In this document: piece by piece, positions 1,628-52,646 of the stretch
Layout: each line of letters starts with the position of its first letter
Numbering within the stretch: the stretch's first letter is position 1
Source of the DNA: Acanthamoeba lenticulata
Lineage: Eukaryota; Discosea; Longamoebia; Acanthamoebidae
Assembly (NCBI GenBank): GCA_002179805.1
Contig: NAVB01000414.1
Coordinates: 1 to 64,000, forward strand
DNA length: 64,000 nt
Direction of reading: 5' to 3'
Program-made: the position numbers and the translations under genes
The notes under the pieces: generated by a model
The model's input: the letters and a program-made list of their open reading frames with translations, nothing else
The model's database searches: none
Told to the model about the DNA's origin: nothing

Positions 1628-4600
1628 ATGGAAGGGAATACAAAGAACGTGAACCCTGCAGTCAAGGCCGAAACGGAGGCCAAGCAGAGCTCCGTGCAGG
1701 ATGAACGCACCATCCTCACCAACATGCACAAATTGGAGAAATCAGTTGTTGAAAAGGGGCAACTTGATGCGATTACTTCACTTCTCCAGACCTGCACAGT
1801 ATGTGTTATCATAATCTCTTCCATTTTTTGACACAAAATTGGTGTGACAGATGAAATTGTCACTTTGCGATTCATCTCCGTCGTTTTGGAACGCTCATTC
1901 TTCCCGTTGCTGCACAACAGGACGTCAACTCGACCTCAACGGTGACCTACAACACCGTGCGAGCGCTGCAGCGTGTCTTCACGCATCTGATAAGCAAGCA
2001 GGTGTTAGACTTGGGGGCTCGCAAGGAAGGTCCCAAGACGCTGGCCAAAGACGAACGCAAGACCGCCGCACGTGCCCACTTCAAGCGCTTTGTGAGTGTC
2101 CTTATCGGCCTCCTTGTTCACCGGCACGACCAAGTCAAGGTCTGTCTCTGCCACGCCACAGCACTTTGTTTTTTGTCCGATGCAGGCCGCTAACGCTTCT
2201 CCGTTTGGTGCCTTTTCCCCTTAGGCGACGGCGTTGAAGGTAGTGCTGGAGTTTTTGCAGAAGAAGACCACCATCCAGAACACAGCCAACTCGGAATACA
2301 CGTTCCCTTTTAAGCACTTTGCGCACATCATCGGTGCGTTGCTTGCCCATTCTCGCCCACCCTTGGCGTTTGGGGTTCGCGGGTTGAGGGCTCACGCGCG
2401 CATCTGCCACTGCCTCAGAGAACGTGCTTCGAGAGAGCAACGGCAACGAGACCGGTCTGTTTACCCTGTTTGTCACCAAGTTCTTGGCCAAGTACTATGA
2501 CATCCGCTACTACACCCTCAAGTCCCTCAAGTACGGCCGTCCTGTTGTCTTTACGGCGCTTTCTGGACAACGCTGATTGCCGGGCTGCTTCACGGCAAAC
2601 AGGGAGGCGTGCCAATTGAAGAAGGCTGCCCTCCGAGGCGCAAAGACTGGGCCTGCGGACGATGTGACCGCCATGTACCTCCTCCTGCAGAAGGTGAAGC
2701 TGCCCACGTCCGATAGCGAGATCACCTCCTTCTGGATCCCGGTCACTGAGGCCGCCGGTCAGCTGCCTGAGATCGCTCGCGTCACCAATAAGCAGAAGAA
2801 GAAGGCCAAGGTACCTTGCCAGGCTGCCCAAACATTGTTTTGTTTTGCTTTTTCTAATTGATGCATAATTTATAATTTATTTTCTGATTAATATGTTTAG
2901 AATAATGCGTTCCTGAGCGAGGAGCTCAAGCGGGAGAAGCACCGCGTCGCTGTCAAGCAGCGCGCCAAGAAGCGTCGCGGCAACTTGGCCGTCAAGTTTG
3001 TTACGGGCTACAAGACAGTCTTTGAGTCGTGCCTGCTCGCCTTCCTCTCACTCCCGCTGACCACTCCCATCTACAAGGTCTGCTTCTCTCCCTCTATGTC
3101 CTCTCTGCCCTGTTATTGCCGCCTCTTATGTTGGTGTCTGCACGTAAAAAAAATAGGATGTCCTGCGCCGGATGGATACCCACATCCTGCCGTGCATGAC
3201 GCAGCCCATCCGGCTGCTCGATTTCCTGAAGGACTCGTACGACGAAGGCGGCGTCATCTCGCTCTACGCTCTGCACGGTCTCTTCATCCTTATCACCAAG
3301 CACAACCTGTACCAGCCTCCCCGCGAGCTCTTGTTCATGTTGATTGTCCTGTTCACTGGTTCTGGGCTGACCGTCGCCCGTCTTCGTCATCGTCATCGAC
3401 AGGGACTATCCCGAGTTCTACAAGAAGCTGTACAGCTTGTTCCAGCCCAACATCTTCCACGTCAAGTACCGGGCCAAGTTCTTCAAGCTTGTCAACGTGT
3501 TCCTCAAGTCCTCGTACGTGACCGACTCGCGCCTGGATGAGTGAGACCACACTTCCAACCAACTCACTCCCGCGCACGCTGAAAACGCGCACAGGCATCT
3601 GCCGGCCTACCTGGTCGCGGCCTTTGTGAAGCGACTGGCGCGGATGGCCCTGCACGCGCCTCCGTCGGGCGCCCTCTTTGTGATCGCCTTCGCCTACAAC
3701 ATGCTCAAGAGGCATCAGCAGCTCCAGATCATGATCCATCACGGTGACCCCACGGCCCACAGCGGCAACCTCCTGCCCGACGACCCCAGGAAACGTATGT
3801 CTTCTTCGCTGATCTTTCTTCTTGTCTCGCCGAGACTGACCTTTTTTATTTTTTATTTTGTATTTTTTATTCTGTTTCTTCTTGGGCCAGCGACGGGAGC
3901 GGGAAAGCAGCAAGCGGGCCCCGTCCTGCTTCTGGGCTCAGACGCAGAGGCCGCGCTCAACGGCGACGACTCGGCTGTGCTCATGCTGAACGGTGACGAC
4001 GCCGAGGGCAAGAAGCGCAAGCGAGAAAACGACAACGACGATGGCGAGGCCACCGAAGGGGCTGCGGCGGCGCCCGAGGAGAAGAGCGAGGCCAACGGCG
4101 AGGCCACACAGGGCGAGGGGCAGGTGAAGAAGAGGCGAAGGAGGCGACGAGGCGGAGCCCAACAGCAGCAGAAGGAGGAGCAGGAGCAGAAGAATGGAGA
4201 GCTCGAAGAAGCCTCCGAGGTCAAGGATGACGACGCTGCTGCAGCGCCGGCGGAGAAGGAGGAAGAGGAGGAGAAGAAGGCTGCTGTGCCGGCGCCCGCG
4301 AACAAGGGGCCTATCGAGGAGGACGAGGCCGCGCTGGGGCGGTATCTGCACGCTGGCTCGGCTGGCAGCGATCCGTTCGTGTTTGAGGAGCTCGACCCGC
4401 AAAAGTGCCACGCCATCAAGAGCTCCCTGTGGGAACTCAAGGCCCTGCAGCACCACTACGTGCCGCAGGTGAGCAAGCTGGCCAAGATCTTTGATGATCC
4501 GCTCGTGAAGCAGCCGTTCGAGCTCGAGGACTTCCTCGACCTCTCCTATCTCTCGGTACCCCTTTCCCCCTTCTCGTTCCGCTCCCTCTCCTTTCATCTG

Positions 4601-4776
4601 GTGGTCCTGTTCGAGCTTGCGGCCTCACCAAGCGCTTTGCTTTCTATCCCACGCCGTAGTTGTTTGAGGCTCATGTGAAGAAGAAGACAAAGTCGACGGC
4701 GGCCTTGGCCTACCAGCCTCAGGAGACACTCTTTTCCCCGTCAGACTCCTTCCAGTCGGACTGGGCCCTGGAGTGA
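1628..4776 (+). CDS. NOC4: NOC4/UTP19-like nucleolar complex protein
   Basis: Nucleolar factor for 40S subunit maturation (NOC4-NOP14 complex). It starts at ATG 1628 (MEGNTKNVNPAV) and ends at TGA 4774-4776. About ten exons join cleanly. HEAT-like N-terminal exons (LQRVFTHLISKQVL, ALKVVLEFLQKK, PFKHFAHIIENVL) lead into the CBF domain: NLAVKFVTGYKTVFE, LRRMDTHILPCMTQP, HNL|DYPEFYKKLYSLF (intron about 3309-3402) and VFLKSSYVTDSRLDEHLPAYL. The C-terminus FELEDFLDLSYLSLFEAHVK is typical of NOC4. An Ala/Glu/Lys/Arg-rich insert of about 140 residues (about 3890-4320, including KKRRRRRRGG) sits between the CBF core and the C-terminal piece and is unusual in length. The family assignment is firm; some exon edges are approximate. 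Confidence 0.9.
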
Positions 4777-4948
4777 TCCACGCCTGTGATGCGCCCCATT
4801 ACTGTTGAAGAGATTAATGTGGTGATTCCTGCTTGTGTTCCTTCTTCTTGCTGCTGGGGTGGTGAGGTCAGCCAAATGCTTGGCATTCCGCCCGCTGCGC
4901 ACGAACCTGTCGTCGTGGAGTGTGGTCGGAGCAAGCACAGCGAAGCAG

Positions 4949-7900
4949 ATGGGGAACCAGCTGGAGCGAGAGCACGACGTTGGGCCCGTAGTGGCGACGG
5001 GTGGGCCTGAGGGGATATGGTTCGCCCTGCCACCGGGCCGCCAGCGATTAGGTTGTGCATCCTCCTCATCGCTCTCGCGATTTCTTGGGGGGGGGACATG
5101 CAGGAAGATCTACACAGCAAAGAAGAAGGAAACTGGCGAGCCTATGTCCATTTGGGTATGCAGCTGGTTTGCTATGCAGGAATGAGGTGCCGGAGAGCTG
5201 ACCTCAAGGGCACTACACCCCAGGTTTTTGAAAAGAAGCAGCTCGAGAAGCACCCTCGTGACGTGCAAGAAGCTGTACTGGCGATGCTGCGAGCAGACGT
5301 ACCTACGCCATTCTTCTCCTTCCCAGATTGCATGTGCGCAGCACCCACACCCTAGCCACTGCACACACGCGCGCAGGTGACCAACCTCAGTCGCCTCGTT
5401 CATCCCAACGGTACACCATCGTGGCGCCTCCGCTGTTCCTCGCTGTGCTCTGCCGGGTGAGGCCGAGGCAGAATGCTTGACCTGACTTTGCACCTGTCCC
5501 TCCCCCCAAACAGTGGTGCGAGTGCTGCAGCCTCTCATGGAGACCAGGGCGTTGCTCGTCGCGCAGACCGAGCCCATCTTTGCCTCCCTGGCCAATGGTT
5601 CGTGCCCCCCTTCCCTCAATTTCTCCCTCGTCTTTCACTCGTCAGCTATGCCTGCGCACTCAACACTGCCCACCAGTGCTGCGGGACTTCACGGGCTTGC
5701 CCAAGGTGCCAGCGGCCCTGGAGAACTTTGAGCTCGACCCCCTCGAGGTAGCCTTCTTCTCTCTCTCTCTCCCGCAGAAGCGGGCATGGCACCTGGCGGC
5801 TCCACCATGTGCCCTGACGCAATCGTGTGGACCAGGCCAAGCTGGGCCTCCTGGAACTGGCCGAGGGACTGGCTTTCCTGCATGGCCACGCGCGCATCGT
5901 GCACCGCAACGTGTGCCCAGAAAGCATCTTCCTCACGCAAAAGGTCTTTCTCTGTCCATCTTCTCTCTCCTGCCCTCTCCGGTGCTCCTCTGCGCTGACG
6001 CTCGACCTCGTCCAACCAATGGTTGACGATGCTCATGGCGCTCCAAAGGGCATGTGGAAGCTGGCCGGGTTCCACTTTGGGTTGTTCCTGTCGGCCCGCC
6101 AGGCCGGTGACCCGCTCCGGCTCGACTACCGCGAGTTTGACTACAAGCCGCCATTCCGCGTGTCGCCCAACCTGGACTACATGGGCACGCCGCTTTCTAT
6201 TATTATTCTTCTTCTTCTTCCAACAGCCGTCTTTGCCTCGTTGGCTCACTGGAGGCCCCGCGCAGCCCCGGAGGCGGTCCACGGCCACTGGGACCCGGCC
6301 ACCGACGTGTGGAGCCTGGCCATGGTGGCCTGGCAGCTGCACACCCGCCGGCCGCCCCCCTCCACCCGCAACAACCTCCTCACCCACCGCGTACGCCCTC
6401 TCACCTCCAAAGAAAGCTTCGTGCACGATGGCGCCTGACGTGTGCGGGCGGTGCGATCAGGCCGTCGTTGAGCGCCTGCGGACCATGGACTGGAGCCAGT
6501 TCCCGGACTCGCTGCGGGGTGCCTCCTCTCTCCTCCTCTCTCCCTCTCTCTCCCTATGTCTTGATCATGCGTGCGTGGGGCTGGGCTCACCCCTCAGTCC
6601 GTGTGTGTGTTTGGGACGTGTAGACCCTCTGCGGCAGATGCTCTCCGAACAGCCACACCAACGGCCCGGTACCTCTTCCGAAGAAGAAGAAGAAGAAGAA
6701 GAAGAAATGGAAAAGTGATTCCGGGCCCTCTCACGCGCAGACGTGGCCACGCCTGCATTTTTCCGTGAATCCGTGTGGTGGTGGTGGTGTGGGGGGACGC
6801 AGAGGTGCGCACGTTCCTGGAGAGCGCCTACTTCAAGGATACGCTGCTCCTGGCGCTGGTCTTTCTCAACGACCTCATCACCAAGGTAAATGCCCCCTTT
6901 GACCGCCGTCGCCGTCGCTCCGAGTGTGACCTCAACCGAGATGTGACGCATGCAGGACCAAGCGAGCAAGCTCAAGTTCTTCAAGGGCCTGGCCTCGGTC
7001 CTGCCCCGCTTCTCGCCGCGCCTGATCAAGGACAAGATCATCGCCTCGCTGTTGGGCGAACTGGTACCGCCTGGCCTATGGACGCACTGGCTTGTCGACG
7101 CCGCGGCTGACGCTGACGCAAACACCTGTTGCCATTGTCGTTATTTCGGGGCGCTAGGCCCGGAGCGAAGGGGAGCTGCAGGCGCTGGTGCTGCAGAGCG
7201 TGCTGGCCTCTTCGCGCACCTGTCTGACGGCGTCCGAGTTCTCGCGGATCGTCCTCCCGGCCCTCCTCCCGCTCATCACCCCCGAGGCCCCGCTCCCCTG
7301 TGCGCCTCTCCTGCTCCTCTTCTCCTTTGTTTATTGGTTTACTTTATGTTTTGTTGTTTTGTTGTTTTTGGTTTTTCTCAAAGCCGGCGACGTGTGGCAC
7401 AGGCGTGCTCCTATTGCTGGGCGAGCTCGAGACGCTGGCCAAGCTGGCGCCACCTGGCGACGCCACCCAATGTACGATGCCTTTGAGGGTTCGAGCACGC
7501 TCGTTCTTGGGCTCAACGATCAATCATCTCTGCAGATTTGGTGCCGCTGGTCATCCGTGCGCTGGAGGCGCCCAACCCAAAGCTCAACGAGGAGGCCCTC
7601 AAGCAGCTGCCCAAGGTCCTCTCTCCCTCTCTCCCTCCCTCGTCACCCCACCGCTTCACTCCCGCGGCTCACCACGGCCGGAACGCAGGCAATGCGCGTT
7701 TTCGAAGTCGCGGCGGTGCGCGACCTTCTTGTGCCGCGCCTGGAGCACCTCATGGCGCACACCCGGTTGGAGCCCATCCGCGCGCGCATTCTCATCACCC
7801 TCAAAGGTCCGCTCCCTGACCCGCTGCCCTCCTCTGGACCACGCCTCGCGCTGACTGCAATTTGGGGGTTGGAGGACGATGTAGACGTGGTCGAGATTGT

Positions 7901-9089
7901 GGACAAGTCGACCGTCGCCGAGCGCGTGTTGGGGATGGTCGACACCTGCCTTGCCATCGACCGCTCTGCGCCAACGCTCGTGCGTCCACTTCTGTCCCCC
8001 CCCCTCTGACTTGCGCGGGAGCCCGGCTCTGACATGGGGGGTGGAGAACAGATGCGCTGCCTCGTCGTGTACGACCTGATCGCGGAGAAGGTGGGAATCG
8101 AGATCACGGCAGCCCGCATTCTGCCCTTTGTCTCGCCGCTCCTCCTCGAGCCGCAGCTCGGCGCCAAAGAAGTGCGCCCACAGGCCACCGCTCCTTCTCT
8201 ACTCGCCGAGACCGGCCTCCTCAGTCGTCGTGCGGGCGCGGGTGGGGCTGTGCTGCCGCTGCTGGGTGCAGGTGGGGTTCGTGGCGGAGCGGATCAAGGG
8301 CATGGTGGACCGCGTCGCCGAGGTGCGGCTCAAGCGCATCACCGCAGCAACCGAGCAGCAACAGGCGGCCCAGCCCAACGGGGCCCTCAATGCCGAAGCC
8401 GACTTTGAGGCCGTCGTCGCGTCGGAGAGCGTCAAGAAAGCCGCTGACCGTGCTCGTTCCCACGGCCCTCCGCCTGTACACGCCTCTTCGCCGTCGATGC
8501 CCGCCGGCGCGCCGTCCAACTATGACGGCGCTGCGTCGCTGGGAGGGCCCTTTGCTTCGCTCTCCCTGCATGGCGGGCCCTTCCCCTCGTCCCACACTGC
8601 TACTGCTGCCCCGAGCGCCCTGCCCGCGCTGACGCAGCCATCGGCGCCACAAGTTTCTGCACCTGTGACAGGTCCTTTGGCGGCGGGCACGCTCACGCTC
8701 CCCATGGGGCAACCGCACCCGCAGCCGCCAGCTGCTGCAGGCTCGCGCTCGGTGAGGTCTGGATCCGTCGGCTTCCCCATGCCACCGCGCGCCAGCCATC
8801 CGGCCACCCTGGCGCCTTCGCTGGCCGCCCCGTTGACGCCGGGGCTCGGCTCCACCACCATCTCGCAACCTCTCCAACCTCTGGTATGTACATACATACC
8901 TGCCGCTCAAGTTCCTTAGCGCCGAAGAGGAGCAGCTCACTGGTATGCATGTAACAGTCAGCTCAGCCATACCAGCAGCCGCTCCAACCTCTGCGAGGAG
9001 CGCCGCAGACGGGCCAGTTCCTCGGCGCGCCGCCACCAGGCGCATCAGGCGTGCGGCCACCACTGGACAACTCGACGTCGCTCCTCTAA
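4949..9089 (+). CDS. SCYL2: SCYL2-like (SCY1 family) pseudokinase
   Basis: SCY1-family pseudokinase; in animals SCYL2/CVAK104 works with clathrin on endosome/TGN traffic. It starts at ATG 4949 (MGNQLEREHDVGPVV) and the first intron (5020-5103) rebuilds PEGIWKIYTAKKK. Next come VFEKKQLEKHPRDVQ and VRVLQPLMETRALLVAQTEP. The kinase motifs are degenerate: the catalytic loop reads VHRNVCPESI (HRN instead of HRD) and the DFG position reads AGFHFG, while DYMAPEAVHGHWDPATDVWS keeps the APE/DVWS landmarks. HEAT repeats follow (about 6800-8400), then a Pro/Ala/Gln-rich tail ending in STSLL. The APE motif is rebuilt only if the intron 6185-6265 uses a GC donor (GCACGC..GCAG). This gene shares the window with clathrin heavy chain. 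Confidence 0.88.
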
Positions 9090-42540: not shown

Positions 42541-42613
42541 TGAGGACGACGTGACTTGAACACGCAGCCTTCTGATCTGGAGTCAGACGCTCTACCAGTT
42601 GAGCTACGCCCCC
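42541..42613 (-). tRNA. tRNA-Trp (anticodon CCA)
   Basis: The minus strand folds as a 73-nt tRNA. The acceptor stem GGGGGCG pairs with CGTCCTC (two G-T wobbles), the D arm is GCTC-AACTGGTA-GAGC, and the anticodon arm is TCTGA-CTCCAGA-TCAGA with anticodon CCA. The T arm is GCGTG-TTCAAGT-CACGT and the discriminator is A. A- and B-box-like promoter elements are in the usual places. No intron. It lies about 50 nt after the methyltransferase-like gene and about 140 nt before the MFS gene, on the opposite strand. Confidence 0.93.
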
Positions 42614-45679: not shown

Positions 45680-48600
45680 ATGTCGGCCCTGCCCATTCAG
45701 TTCAAGGAGATCGCCCAGGTATAGAACACTCTAGTTTTTGTGGAGTCCCTGTGCGCTGTGCAAAAAACTGGGCAGACTCGTTGATCCACAAAAATGCTGC
45801 TGCTGCTGCCAGCTGGATCTTTTGACTTTCGTTAACCTACGAATCATCTTTTCATGGCCTCGCGCAGTTGGGCGGTCCTCCCTACACGATCAATCCCCAG
45901 TCCATTGGGTTCGCTACGCTTACCATGGAGTCGGAGAAGTATGTCTGTGTCCGTGATCAAGTGGGCGAAGAGCGCAATGTCGTCATCATCGATCTCCAGA
46001 ATCCAGCCAACATCGTGCGACGACCGATCGCTGCTGATTCGGCCCTGATGAACCCTGTGCACAACATCCTTGCACTCAAGGGTATTAAAAAACACCCTCT
46101 ATGGCCAATTTTCACAGTGCGCACAAAAGCTAACTTGAAGCTTGTTCCTCCCCGCAGACACTCAGAATTTGCAGATTTTCAACATCGGTGAGCGCCAGAA
46201 GCTTAATGACTGCGTTATGAGCGAGCCGGTCGAATTCTGGAAGTGGATTTCCGATTCTAAGCTAGCACTCGTTACTGCTACTTCAGTCTACCACTGGTCG
46301 ATGAATGGTTCTCATAAGCTTCTTTTTCTTTCGTTTCGTCGCAGTTGTTTTGTTCGCGCAATTGCTGATGTCTGTTTTTTTTTTTCTTTCTTTCTTTTCT
46401 CGTTCAGATGGTGCCAAACCGCAGAAGATCTTTGCGCGTCACCAATCGCTCGTGGGTACCCAGATTATCAACTACCGTGTCGATCAGGCGGAAAAGTGGT
46501 GTGCTGTGATCGGCATCACGCGGAAGGACGACCGCATTGCCGGCGCCATGCAGCTCTACTCGGTTGAGCGCAAGGTGAGCCAGGCGCTCGAGGGTCACGC
46601 GGCCTCCTTCTGCAACTACCATACGGAGGGATCGACTCGCAACTCGACCCTCTTCTGCTTCGCGACGCGCACAGCGGCATCGGCCAAGCTCTACATTCTC
46701 GAAGTGGGCCAGACCGAAGGCGCCGGCGGCGGCTTCGAGAAGAAGCAGAGCGATATTTATTTCCCGGCTGAGGCCGCGCAGGACTTCCCGGTCGCGCTGC
46801 AGGTGAGCGATAAGTACTCGGTGGTCTACATGATCACCAAGTTCGGCTACATCCACATCTTCGATATCACGACTGGCAAGCTCCTCTACATGAACCGCAT
46901 CTCGGCCGAGACCATCTTCGTGACGGCACCGCAGGTGTCCACCGGTGGCATTATCGGCGTCAACCGCAAGGGTCAAGTGCTCTCTGTCACCATCGACGAG
47001 AACACGATTGTGCCCTACATTTGCACCCAGCTCAACGACTTTGACCTGGCCATCAAGTTCGCGACCAAGAACAACCTCCGCGGCGCAGAGGAGCTTGTCG
47101 CGAGCCAGTTCAACCAGCTCTTCCAGCAGGGTCGCTTCAAGGAAGCCGCCAAGGTGTGCGCCGACTCGCCACAGGGCATGCTTCGCACGACGCAGACTAT
47201 CCAGATGTTCTCGCGCCTGCCGGCCTCGCCCGGCCAACCCTCGCCGCTGCTCCAGTACTTCTCCGTGCTGCTCGAGAAGGGCAAGCTCAACAAGGTCGAG
47301 TCGCTCGAGCTCGCCCGTCCCGTCCTTCAGCAGGGCCGCAAGGAGCTCCTCCAGAACTGGCTCAAGGAGGAGAAGCTCGACTGTAGCGAGGAGCTCGGCG
47401 ACCTCGTCCGTCCCTACGACCCCAACCTCGCCCTTTCCATCTTCTACCTGGCCGACGCCAAGGACAAGGTTGTCCAGTGCCTCGCCGACAGCGGCCAGTA
47501 TGACCGCATTCTTCTCTACGCCGAGAAGACCGGCTACACGCCGGACTTCATGTTCATCCTCAACAGCCTCGTCCAGACCAACCCCCAGGGCGCTGCCAAC
47601 TTCGCCGCCAAGCTCCTCTCCGGCCCGCAGGCATCGCGCATCGACGTCAACCAGATCGTTGATCTCTTCCTGCACCGCAACATGGTCCAGGAGACCACCT
47701 CGCTCCTGCTCGACGTCCTTAAGGGCAACAAGCCTGAGGAGGGCCCGCTCCAGACCCGCCTCCTCGAGGTCAACCTCCTGCAGGCGCCTCAGGTGGCTGA
47801 TGCCATCATGGGTTATGAGATGCTCACCCACTACAACAAGCCCTATATCGCCCAGCTCTGCGAGAAGGCTGGCCTCTACCAGAGGGTGCGCTCTACTCTT
47901 TCGTATCCCGTTATTTATTTATTTTATTTTTTCTCTCTGGTGATGGCAAAATAATCTTTGAGACCATACGTCCTGGCCTTTTGGCCGGGTTGCTGACACT
48001 TAGCATATACTGAAGATCTTTCTATTTTTGTTCAATTCCTCCCTCCTCAATTATTGTCATTTGGCTGACCACACATCCACACACAAAACCAATTTTTTCC
48101 TTCTGTTTTCAGGCGCTGGAGCACTACACCAACATCGCCGACATCAAGCGTGTGATGCTCAACACTCACGCTATCAACCCCGAGTTCCTGGTCAACTATT
48201 TCGGTCAGCTCTCGGTCGAGGACAGCCTGGACTGCTTGAAGGAGCTGATGCGCGTCAACCCGCGCCAGAACCTGCAGACGGTTGTCGCCGTCGCAACCAA
48301 GTACTCGGAGCAGCTTACTCCGGCGGCGCTTATCGATCTCTTCGAGACCAACAACAGCTACGATGGCCTGTACCACTACCTGGGCGCCGTGGTGCCCTAC
48401 TCTCAGGAACCTGAGGTGCACTTTAAGTACATCGAAGCCGCCGTCAAGATGAACGCCCTGCGCGATGTCGAGCGCATCTGCCGCGAGAGCAACTTCTACG
48501 ACCCCAAGAAGGTCCGCGACTTCCTCAAGGAGGCTCGGCTTCCAGATCAGCTGCCCCTCATCATCGTGTGCGACCGCTTCGACTTTGTCGAGGAGCTCAC

Positions 48601-51600
48601 CCGCTACCTCTACGCCAACAGCATGATGCAGTACATCGAGGTGCGCTTCTCCTTCCCTTCCCCCCCCAACTCTTTTTAGTCGCCTTGTACCCAAGCTGAT
48701 GATAAAGTGAGCTCCCTCTACTGATTTGCGCCATGAGGAAAAGCTCGAACCGGAATCAAATTATTATCTGATTATTACCGAGGCCTTTTTTTTAATGGTT
48801 TCATTTTCTGTGTTGTACCCTGCTGACGAACTCTTGTGTCTTGACGTGGTCCACAGGCTTACGTGCAGAAGATCAACCCTATCAACACGCCCGCCGTGGT
48901 TGGTGCTCTGCTTGACGTGGACTGCGGTGAGGATTACATCCAGAAGCTTATCATGTCCGTCCGCAATCTGTGCCCGGTCGACGAGCTCGTGGCGGCGATC
49001 GAGAAGCGTAACCGCCTGAAGCTGCTGCTGCCCTGGCTCGAGGCCCGCGTGGCCGAAGGCAACCAGGAACCGGCCACGCATAACGCGCTCGCTAAGATCT
49101 ACATCGACCTCAACCGCGACCCGGAGAAGTTCCTCACCACCAACACCTACTACGATAGCCGCGTTGTTGGCAAGTACTGTGAGAACCGCGACCCGCACCT
49201 GGCCTTCCTCATCTACAAGCGAGGTACTGCTTCACCGACCTCTTTTTTTCCCGTTCTTTTTGTGTTGTCTTGTCGTTCGTTTTACGTGTCTAGCTGATGA
49301 TAAAGTGAGCTCCCTCTACTGATTTGCGCCATGAGGAAAAGCTCGAACCGGAATCAAATTTTTGTCTGATCTATTTCTTTTGCCGCTCATGCGTGTCCTC
49401 TTTTGTGTTGAATCTCTTCGTTGACACTTTTTTTTTTTATATACTTTGTTTTCGTGCACCAGGCCTGTGCGACGATGAGCTGGTGGCAGTAACCAACAAG
49501 AACTCGCTGTTCAAGAGCCAGGCTCGCTACTTGGTGGAGAGGCAGAGCCAGGACCTGTGGCTCAAGGTGCTTGACGACAACAACGAGTTCCGTCAGGCTG
49601 TGCTCGACCAGGTGGTGCAAACGGCCTTGCCCGAGAGCAAGAACCCCGACGAGGTCTCGGCTGCGGTGAAGGCCCTCATGAACGCCGACATGCCCAACGA
49701 GCTCATCGGTCTGCTCGAGAAGATCGTGCTGGAGCCCTCTGACTTTAGCAACAACAAGAACCTCCAGAACCTGCTCATTCTCACCGCCATCAAGGCCGAC
49801 AGCTCACGGGTCATGGCCTACATTGACCGCCTGGATAACTTCGATGGCCCCGACATTGCCACCATCGCTGAGGGTGCTGGTCTCTTTGATGAAGCGGTTG
49901 CCATCTACAAGAAGTTCAAGCTCCACCCGCAGGCCATCACCGTCATCCTCCGCGACCTCAACGACCTCGAGGCTGCCGTTTCCTTTGCCTCGCAGATCAA
50001 TGAGCCTGAGGTCTACTCGCTCCTCGCCAAGGCTCAGCTCCAGAACAACCTTGTCTCCGACGCTATCGGTACTGTCCCGCCTCCTCTCCTCTCTCCTTTC
50101 TCTCCCAGTTGCCAAGTGCGCGCAAAAGGATGTATTACAGTTTATCCCTGTCCGAGATGACACAAACTATAATGTGGACTCAATCTAGCAATTTCTGATT
50201 ACGCCGCTTCGTTTTAGCTCTCTCTCCTCTCTTCACCTCTTGCTGCATGCCCGTTAGCTAACTCAGCCTCTTTACTTGTACACCAGAGTCGTACATCAAG
50301 GCCAACGACCCGGAGAACTACGTCGATGTTATCGTGGCGTCTGAGCGCGAGCAGCTGTGGGACCCGCTCGTCAAGTTCTTGCAGATGTGCCGCAAGAAGG
50401 TGAAGGAGGCTCATATTGAGTCAGAGCTGATCTACGCCCTGGCCAAGGTCGACCGGCTCGCCGAACTCGAGGAGTTCATCTCTGGCCCCAACTGCGCGCA
50501 GATCCAGCTTATCGGCGACCGGTGCTTCGAGGAGGGCATGTACGAGGCGGCCAAGCTCCTGTTCAGCAACATCCACAACTTTGCCCGCCTGGCGACCACG
50601 CTCGTCAAGCTTCAACAGTACTCGTCCGCCGTCGAGGCCGCCCGCAAGGCCGGCAGCACCAAGACCTGGAAGGAGGTCAACCTGCACCTCATCGAGGTCA
50701 AGGAGTTCCGTTTGGCCCAGATCTGCGCCCTCCACATCGTCATCCACGGTGATGAACTCGACGAGCTTGTCTGGCGATACGAGAGCCGCGGCTACTTTGA
50801 GGAGATCATCTCCGTCCTTGGTATGGCTTTTCTTTCCGTCCGTGCCTGTGTCTTGGTTGTCCGGCCTTCTTGTCTCACTTTAACCTTGGTCACACAGCGT
50901 CGAGCTTGGGACTGGACCGTGCGCACAAGGCCATGTTCACGGAGCTGGCGATCTTGTACTCCAAGTACAAGCCGGAGAAGCTGCAGGAGCACTTGGAGCT
51001 TTTCCCCGACCGCATCAGCCTGCCCAAGGTCATCCGGTGGTGCCAGACCAACTCGCAGTGGAAGGAGCTCACCTACCTGTACAAAGCCAGCAATGAGTAT
51101 GAGAATGCCGCGATGACCATGATCACCCATCCCATCGAGGCCTGGGACCACAATGAGTTCAAGAGCGTCATCAGCAAGGTGCAAGCCCTCGAGACCATCT
51201 ACAAGGTACACTCTTCCTCTATTTCCCTCAGCCCACTCCCCCTCTTGTCAGAGAAGTGCGCACAAAAGGATGTATTACAGTTTATCCCTGTCCGAGATGA
51301 CACAAACTATAATGTGGACTCAATCTAGCAATTTCTGATTTCGCCACTTTTTACCGCTTTAGTCTTGCTCTCTTCTGTTCCTATACGTGATGTACAACTG
51401 ACTCGTGTACGTGATTGATGACTAGGCCGTGCGGTTCTACCTGTCGGAGCACCCGCTGCAGACGAATGACCTGTTGAACGTGGTGAGCAGCAAGGTCGAC
51501 CACACTAAGGTGGTGGCTGTGGCGCGGGACATGAACCTGCTGGCCCTGATCAAGCCCTACCTGACGTCGGTCCAGTCGGAGAACGTGGCGGCCGTGAACG

Positions 51601-52391
51601 AAGCCCTCAACGAACTGTACATCGAAGAAGAAGACTACGACTCACTCAAGACCTCGATTGAGACCTACGACAAGCTCAACCACCTCGCTCTGGCGCGCAC
51701 GCTCGAGAAGCACGAGCTGCTCGAGTTCCGCAGAATCGCCGCGCAGCTCTACAAGCAGAACGGCGAGTGGTCCAAGTCGGTGGAGCTGAGCAAGTCAGAC
51801 GATCTCTTCCGCGACGCCATGCAGACTGCGGCCGACTCAGCCAACCCGGACGTCGTCGAGGAGCTGCTCCGGTTCTTCGTGTCCAAGGGCGACGCCGAGT
51901 GCTTCGCTGCTTGTCTCTACACCTGCTACGACTATGTCAAGCCCGACGTCGTGCTGGAGCTTGCCTGGAAGCACGGCCTCACCGACTTCGCCATGCCCTA
52001 CCTCATCCAAGCCATCCGCGAGTACACCACCAAGGTCGACCAGCTCGTCGAGGCCGCCAAGCCCAAGAAGGACGACAAGAAGCCTGAGGACGGCGCCCCG
52101 GTCCACTTCCCCGGCGTCGGCCCCGGCGGCGAGTTCTTCCCGCCGGCTGGCATGGTCCCCATCATGACCGGCGCTGGCCCCATCGCCATGGTGCCCACTG
52201 GCATGCCCCCGCAGGCCTTTACCGGCATGCCCGGCGGTGTCGTGCCCATCATGCGGCCCGCCATGACCGGTCTCCACCCTGCCGCTCCCGGCTCGGGCAG
52301 TTTTCCCTTTGCCCGCCCCGGCATGCCCGGCGTTCCCCACCCTCTCGGCGCCTCGCCTCTCGGCCAGCCGCCCGCTCCCTTCTCCCAGTAA
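45680..52391 (+). CDS. CLTC: clathrin heavy chain
   Basis: Coat triskelion leg. Ten exons, about 1,729 residues, ATG 45680 ([13 protein letters not shown]), TAA 52389-52391. The N-terminal beta-propeller has [49 protein letters not shown] and [16 protein letters not shown]. The linker ([17 protein letters not shown]) and CHC repeats ([53 protein letters not shown]) follow. The C-terminus is the trimerisation region, then a Pro/Gly/Met-rich tail ([18 protein letters not shown]) ending FSQ. Domain order and length are canonical. Introns in the 5' half are short, but five in the 3' half (47886-48112, 48641-48856, 49224-49462, 50069-50286, 51206-51425) are 216-239 nt and carry ncRNA candidates; the short one at 50821-50897 has none. 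Confidence 0.96.
47938..48017 (+). ncRNA. weak box C/D snoRNA candidate in a clathrin intron
   Basis: Inside the 227-nt intron 47886-48112. C-like box GTGATGG (47940-47946), a hairpin CCTGGCC-TTTT-GGCCGGG, a first CTGA at 47993-47996 and a second CTGA at 48010-48013. The intron is as long as the four neighbouring introns that carry duplicated elements. There is only one copy, the C box is imperfect and no strong guide match was found, so it is tentative. Confidence 0.3.
48693..48775 (+). ncRNA. box C/D snoRNA candidate, copy 1 (18S guide)
   Basis: In clathrin intron 48641-48856. Box C TGATGA (48697-48702), D' CTGA (48721-48724), C' ATGAGGA (48733-48739), D CTGA (48768-48771); C to D spans 75 nt. 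The nine bases GCTCCCTCT just before D' and the eight bases CCGGAATC after C' are, in order, the two halves of GCTCCCTCTCCGGAATC, the exact reverse complement of the conserved 18S rRNA segment GATTCCGGAGAGGGAGC. The D+5 rule points to the first G of GGG. This would be the site known in human 18S as Gm436, guided by SNORD100 (from memory). Confidence 0.85.
49291..49373 (+). ncRNA. box C/D snoRNA candidate, copy 2 (18S guide)
   Basis: In clathrin intron 49224-49462, about 600 nt downstream of copy 1. Box C TGATGA 49295-49300, D' CTGA 49319-49322, D CTGA 49366-49369; the 75-nt C-to-D distance is the same as copy 1. A 69-nt core is identical between copies, with changes only in the loop before D (TTATTAT versus TTTTTGT) and in the flanks, while the surrounding intron has diverged. 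Confidence 0.85.
50114..50209 (+). ncRNA. structured intronic RNA candidate B, copy 1
   Basis: In clathrin intron 50069-50286. A 96-nt element starting AAGTGCG and ending CGCCGCTT. The ends can pair (AAGTG with CGCTT, one U-G pair). It has a CTGA D-box at 50195-50198 just inside the closing stem, a weak C-like GGATGTA after the 5' stem and an internal GAGATGA at about 50153-50159. Possible box C/D snoRNA with a degenerate C box; class uncertain. Guide target not identified. Confidence 0.65.
51254..51349 (+). ncRNA. structured intronic RNA candidate B, copy 2
   Basis: In clathrin intron 51206-51425. It matches copy 1 at 93 of 96 positions with no gaps. One change turns the terminal-stem U-G pair of copy 1 into U-A (AAGTG with CACTT), so pairing is kept. 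CTGA at 51335-51338. The flanking intron sequence is unrelated between copies. Confidence 0.65.
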
Positions 52392-52646
52392 TTGTAGCGA
52401 TCTCGTCCTGTAGAAGAAAGCTTTCTTTGTCCCCTATCACTCTTTAGTTTACTGTGGCCAAGTGGAAGCGTCGCCGAATCGTCGGCAAACTTGGCACTTG
52501 CGACCCACGGCTAGCCGTGTAGAAAAAAAAAAAAAAACAAAGAACAAAAACAATTAAAAAGTAGCCGACTGAATAATTTCGAGTAAAAAAAGTATGGTAA
52601 CGGCTCACAAATCTCTGCTGTTTGCCCGCCAGAAGTACCAAGATTA

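Follow-up and report, generated by a model that had tools for sequence, protein, structure and literature searches.

A SNORD100-like box C/D snoRNA candidate in two adjacent introns of a clathrin heavy-chain gene of Acanthamoeba lenticulata

Two adjacent introns of a clathrin heavy-chain gene in the amoeba Acanthamoeba lenticulata carry an almost identical short element, which raises the question of what this element is and how one gene came to hold it twice. The locus is part of a 64,000-nucleotide stretch of DNA (contig NAVB01000414.1, positions 1 to 64,000, assembly GCA_002179805.1), called the window here. Judged from the DNA sequence, it is highly likely that both elements are box C/D snoRNAs encoded within introns and homologous to SNORD100, and that they would guide Gm436-type methylation of 18S rRNA with the help of an accessory pairing.

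The host gene and the two introns are located as follows.

45680..52391, forward strand: clathrin heavy-chain host gene (10 exons, 9 introns, 1729 aa)
48641..48856, forward strand: intron 5, host of SNORD100-like copy 1 (GT..AG borders, frame kept)
49224..49462, forward strand: intron 6, host of SNORD100-like copy 2 (from the joined-exon gene model)

Splicing the exons in silico yields a single reading frame with zero internal stops, and the gene is complete within the window. Pfam clathrin domains were found in all four exons scanned (the gene has 10). Among the best 120 of 2708 protein matches, the top match (JGI) shows 91% identity, while the top organism-named match is the clathrin heavy chain of Balamuthia mandrillaris (63%). 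A tRNA-Trp gene with anticodon CCA is found at 42541-42613 on the reverse strand. Intron 1 (45719-45867) contains a 10-bp inverted repeat, TTTTTGTGGA..TCCACAAAAA; it was considered as a structured element and rejected, as its folding is not above that of shuffles (z -0.59).

The elements, and the boxes and pairing stretches of copy 1, are listed below.

48694..48772, forward strand: SNORD100-like box C/D snoRNA candidate, copy 1 (RF00609, 21.8 bits against a 58-bit cut-off)
49292..49370, forward strand: SNORD100-like box C/D snoRNA candidate, copy 2 (RF00609, 25.5 bits, E 0.0024 for 271 bases)
48697..48702, forward strand: box C core TGATGA, copy 1
48711..48719, forward strand: D' guide GCTCCCTCT, copy 1, complement of 18S AGAGGGAGC
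48721..48724, forward strand: box D' CTGA, copy 1
48733..48739, forward strand: box C' ATGAGGA, copy 1
48750..48757, forward strand: putative accessory pairing stretch CCGGAATC, copy 1, complement of 18S GATTCCGG adjoining the guide duplex
48768..48771, forward strand: box D CTGA, copy 1

The first-pass annotation of this DNA had described a 69-nt identical core (48694-48762 and 49292-49360) in two otherwise different introns, with ordered boxes and equal spacing. The core is real, and the alignable element common to introns 5 and 6 extends further, to 79 nt, 77 of which are identical. The two mismatches, at 48763 and 48766 in copy 1, lie just before box D and fall outside the guide, the boxes and the accessory stretch. 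Both copies contain boxes C, D', C' and D in this order with D near the 3' end, all boxes of copy 2 being found at +598 from those of copy 1, and the distance from the start of C to the end of D is 75 nt in each, as had been claimed. The introns do differ otherwise: the flanks of the two copies are unrelated, with 2 of 10 identical bases per side, and near-identity extends no further than the borders expected of the snoRNA. The sequence preceding box D is taken as a presumably unused guide because it differs between the copies. Beyond introns 5 and 6, no SNORD100-like element was found in the 48.5-Mb assembly (1825 contigs) by DNA search or with a C-guide-D' pattern, and viral contigs gave no match to the snoRNA pattern or to the rRNA pieces.

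SNORD100 (HBII-429, RF00609) is the best Rfam match of the element. In the RF00609 alignment the C core, the guide with its D' box (GCUCCCUCUACUGA) and the C' box (AUGAGGAAA) are identical and occur in the same order, and the guide, the D' box and the predicted 18S nucleotide, placed on the 18S of another eukaryote, are those of SNORD100. At 25.5 and 21.8 bits, both copies fall far short of the 58-bit gathering cut-off, so that the case is carried by the guide and boxes in their order; the element is therefore called SNORD100-like and is not assigned to the Rfam family itself. Searching the whole assembly with RF00609 reported only copy 2 (E 0.097), and of 14 prokaryotic control genomes 8 also gave matches in this loose search, all below the cut-off. 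The Rfam scan that scored the two copies also returned two snoRNA matches that look like chance, at 19.1 and 18.7 bits, one within an exon (52229-52283, reverse strand) and one downstream of the gene (52543-52605). Whereas SNORD100 is hosted by RPS12 (PMC3412847), a host that is common in animals and not required for the assignment, the amoeba element is hosted by the clathrin heavy-chain gene. It further differs from SNORD100 in its two copies, its accessory stretch CCGGAAUC and its sub-cut-off score.

The 18S of the organism itself was not found in the assembly by 18S pattern search, DNA search or LSU pattern search; its place was therefore taken by the 18S of L050 and L055, two eukaryotic contigs that are listed within bacterial assemblies. 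The guide GCTCCCTCT pairs over 9 bp with AGAGGGAGC in the 18S of both contigs, leaving one unpaired A before D'. The methylated base is set relative to box D' by the D'+5 rule. With this single A between guide and D', the rule predicts the first G of the GGG run as the methylated base, which is base 388 of the L050 18S. Base 436 of the same 18S is an A, and yeast Am436 is tabulated as equivalent to human Am484 and plant Am438 (PMC8817022); base 388 would thus correspond to human position 436 and plant position 390, if the numbering of L050 follows that of yeast. SNORD100 guides human 18S G436 (PMC12288042; PMC3412847). In plants, AtsnoR30 (Gm390) and AtsnoR58 (Gm391) are tabulated against human Gm436 and HBII-429/SNORD100, with no yeast entry in that table, and HBII-429 is also tabulated there against Am484 (PMC3511168). 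The amoeba element is likened to the two plant snoRNAs by this tabulated target. The kind of guide is already known, a point that the first-pass annotation had missed, and the Gm436 site is methylated in animals and plants.

It had also been proposed that the guide and the stretch after C' together form an exact complement of one conserved 18S piece, split by the D'-C' part. This holds for GATTCCGGAGAGGGAGC in the 18S of other eukaryotes. A scan of genome contigs for this 17-mer returned 53 loci. Eleven of these also hold a second of 8 conserved rRNA strings, and the other 42 hold no second string. One of the 11 (L044) was rejected as an 18S locus, lacking 18S flanks by eye, which leaves 10 with 18S context; since the 17-mer was itself the query, these 10 loci give no measure of its conservation. 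The L055 rDNA (2182-8000) comes from a divergent protist and is found on an 8.5-kb contig in a Caedibacter MAG, its source possibly being the host of the Caedibacter symbiont.

Following C', the stretch CCGGAATC is perfectly complementary to the eight 18S bases that lie immediately upstream of the guide duplex. Known box C/D snoRNAs show accessory base-pairing of this type, a second rRNA pairing beside the guide target, and the arrangement here would be equivalent. When the 28-nt C'-to-D segment was shuffled base by base, 14 of 100,000 shuffles had an adjoining match of at least 8 nt to the L050 18S; this test of abutment was framed after the match had been seen. A chance match, with the 9-bp D' guide working alone, is an alternative to accessory pairing, if a somewhat unlikely one. 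If the 8-nt match may lie anywhere up to 60 nt away in either direction, 1,275 of 100,000 shuffles produce one, and the C'-to-D segment finds 8-nt complements at two of 1740 places in the L050 18S, namely the adjoining site and 1182-1189. The metazoan SNORD100 consensus in the RF00609 alignment is without CCGGAAUC, and the two amoeba copies are too similar to serve as an independent test. Published accounts describe such extra pairing in over half of box C/D snoRNAs; mutating it had no effect for U18, although it had one for snR13. What speaks against chance is the exact abutment, so rare among shuffles, and the near-identical geometry of a further candidate in intron 4.

47936..48017, forward strand: snoR66-like C/D candidate in intron 4 (RF00202, 23.4 bits, cut-off 43)

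This candidate contains a guide, TAATCTTTGAGAC, at 47952-47964, directly followed by a degenerate D' box (CATA). The guide pairs perfectly over 13 bp with positions 34-46 of the L050 18S, and the predicted +5 base is 18S C38. Further downstream, AGCATAT pairs with 18S 26-32, and one unpaired base, 33, separates this pairing from the guide duplex; a 7-bp match with a gap of at most 1 base is found in 66 of 20,000 shuffles, and a match with zero gap is absent. Plant snoR66 (RF00202) has UGAUGGCA and UCUUUGAGACC in common with the candidate. Dictyostelium CD35 (SSU Cm38, PMC8817022) has C38, the predicted target of the candidate, as its methylation site, a likeness at the level of the target; the table in that paper gives no plant, human or yeast counterparts for Cm38.

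Taken together, this would make the SNORD100-like element very probably a guide that directs a methyl mark onto 18S rRNA. We propose that the snoRNAs are expressed as part of the clathrin pre-mRNA, would be released from its introns upon splicing and would then bind the C/D core proteins. By the D'+5 rule they would direct 2'-O-methylation to the G that opens the GGG run in 18S AGAGGGAGC (human Gm436; plant Gm390), while the 8-nt accessory element after C' would pair with the 18S bases just upstream. Accessory and guide pairing combined would thus hold 17 contiguous rRNA bases by two segments that flank the D'/C' motif. The earlier interpretation as a methylation guide with extra pairing stands as a prediction from box anatomy, target and pairing, with the D' guide, D' and C' shared with the RF00609 alignment, and common descent with SNORD100 would be probable.

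An external stem as good as that of copy 1 is formed by 8 of 500 shuffles, and one as good as that of copy 2 by 475 of 500. A hairpin between guide and C' (48708-48748), which would hide the guide, is matched by 76 of 1,000 shuffles, and the SNORD100 consensus forms a similarly weak one (45 of 1,000). Without a clear terminal or external stem and with two changes before box D separating it from copy 1, copy 2 might be suspected of being a recent, dying duplicate, so that a single copy would be an active snoRNA. We regard this as unlikely: the boxes, guide and accessory stretch are intact in both copies, the changes miss all predicted functional bases, and it is copy 2 that scores higher against SNORD100 (25.5 versus 21.8 bits).

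The first-pass annotation had placed snoRNA candidates in two clathrin introns, an observation that proved right and understated. In addition to the intron 4 candidate, a different duplicated pair is found in introns 7 and 9.

50114..50209, forward strand: snoR38-like C/D candidate copy 1 in intron 7 (RF00213, 22.5 bits, cut-off 45)
51254..51349, forward strand: snoR38-like C/D candidate copy 2 in intron 9 (RF00213, 19.1 bits)

The element common to introns 7 and 9 spans 96 nt, 93 of which are identical, and none was found elsewhere in the assembly. In intron 7 the guide TTATCCCTGT is located at 50142-50151, followed by D' CCGA and by D at 50195. The snoR38 family (plant snoR38, SNORD38 and yeast snR38; RF00213) has the guide UAUCCCUGU before D', as in introns 7 and 9, which differ from it by one extra U inside the guide stretch and by their low scores. 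For intron 9, the Dictyostelium model DdR1 gives a slightly better E-value (0.66) than snoR38 (1.1). The site of the snoR38 family is LSU Gm4362 in human, Gm2815 in yeast and Gm3148 in Dictyostelium, where the guide is CD6 (PMC8817022), and by analogy the predicted target of the amoeba candidates is the second G of LSU ACAGGGAUAA. One of the differences between introns 7 and 9 changes a U-G to a U-A pair in the terminal stem. Terminal or external stems as good as those observed occur in 255 of 500 shuffles for intron 4, 71 of 500 for intron 7 and 32 of 500 for intron 9.

With three further introns containing weaker C/D candidates, five of the nine clathrin introns look like likely snoRNA hosts. 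Mammalian intronic C/D snoRNAs favour a certain distance from the 3' splice site. In introns 4, 5, 6, 7 and 9, the end of box D is 99, 85, 93, 88 and 87 nt away from the 3' splice site, respectively, a narrow range that is partly due to the similar length of these introns (216-239 nt). Introns 1, 2, 3 and 8 returned zero Rfam matches and contain no C-like box (at most 1 mismatch) with a CTGA 40-120 nt further on. An alternative in which the repeat is no guide RNA and instead acts from within the introns on splicing or regulation of the clathrin gene is highly improbable. In its favour is the spacing to the 3' splice site, which is similar in all five introns. Against it, the guide, D' and C' agree with those of a known snoRNA whose 18S target fits, another intron pair carries a different guide-like element, and the four other introns show neither an Rfam match nor a C-like box with CTGA.

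If the elements are snoRNAs, their arrangement bears on how they spread. Two guides are each duplicated within the clathrin gene, one in introns 5 and 6 and the other in introns 7 and 9, and each would have been copied to another intron of the same host gene. Identity ends at the snoRNA borders and the spacers are as conserved as the guides, a pattern that speaks for the snoRNA alone having been copied recently, or gene-converted, and not for an old intron duplication. Retroposition is known for snoRNAs, and in sponge ribosomal-protein genes snoRNAs are duplicated in neighbouring introns (PMC3412847). A broader reading would combine a clathrin gene that hosts multiple snoRNAs (five of nine introns), intron-to-intron spread that is probably RNA-mediated, since identity ends with the snoRNA and the flanks are unrelated, and a SNORD100-like guide that gained a lineage-specific arm clamping 17 18S bases; we put this combination forward tentatively, at somewhat less than an even chance.

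Among the literature matches listed, none reported clathrin as a snoRNA host, in agreement with the initial remark that a clathrin heavy-chain gene is not known to have been described in this role, and none dealt with Acanthamoeba guides, judged by title and start of abstract. What is new at this locus is a candidate amoebozoan Gm436 guide, predicted from sequence, together with its unusual clathrin host and its duplication within one gene. In the set of Dictyostelium C/D snoRNA genes studied in PMC8817022, all but CD38 lie outside introns, and according to the same source snoRNAs are more often found within introns in those eukaryotes whose introns are larger. That one amoebozoan gene has five C/D candidates, all of them within short introns (216-239 nt), runs against this trend. 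Among the 17 high-confidence SSU sites listed there for Dictyostelium, none matches Gm436. The amoeba candidate suggests that the Gm436 guide was lost en route to Dictyostelium, rather than being absent from Amoebozoa. Through its role as host, a membrane-traffic gene, and not a ribosomal one, would be tied to ribosome modification. Finally, two guides that may have been caught after copying within a single gene would allow the mode of snoRNA spread to be studied.
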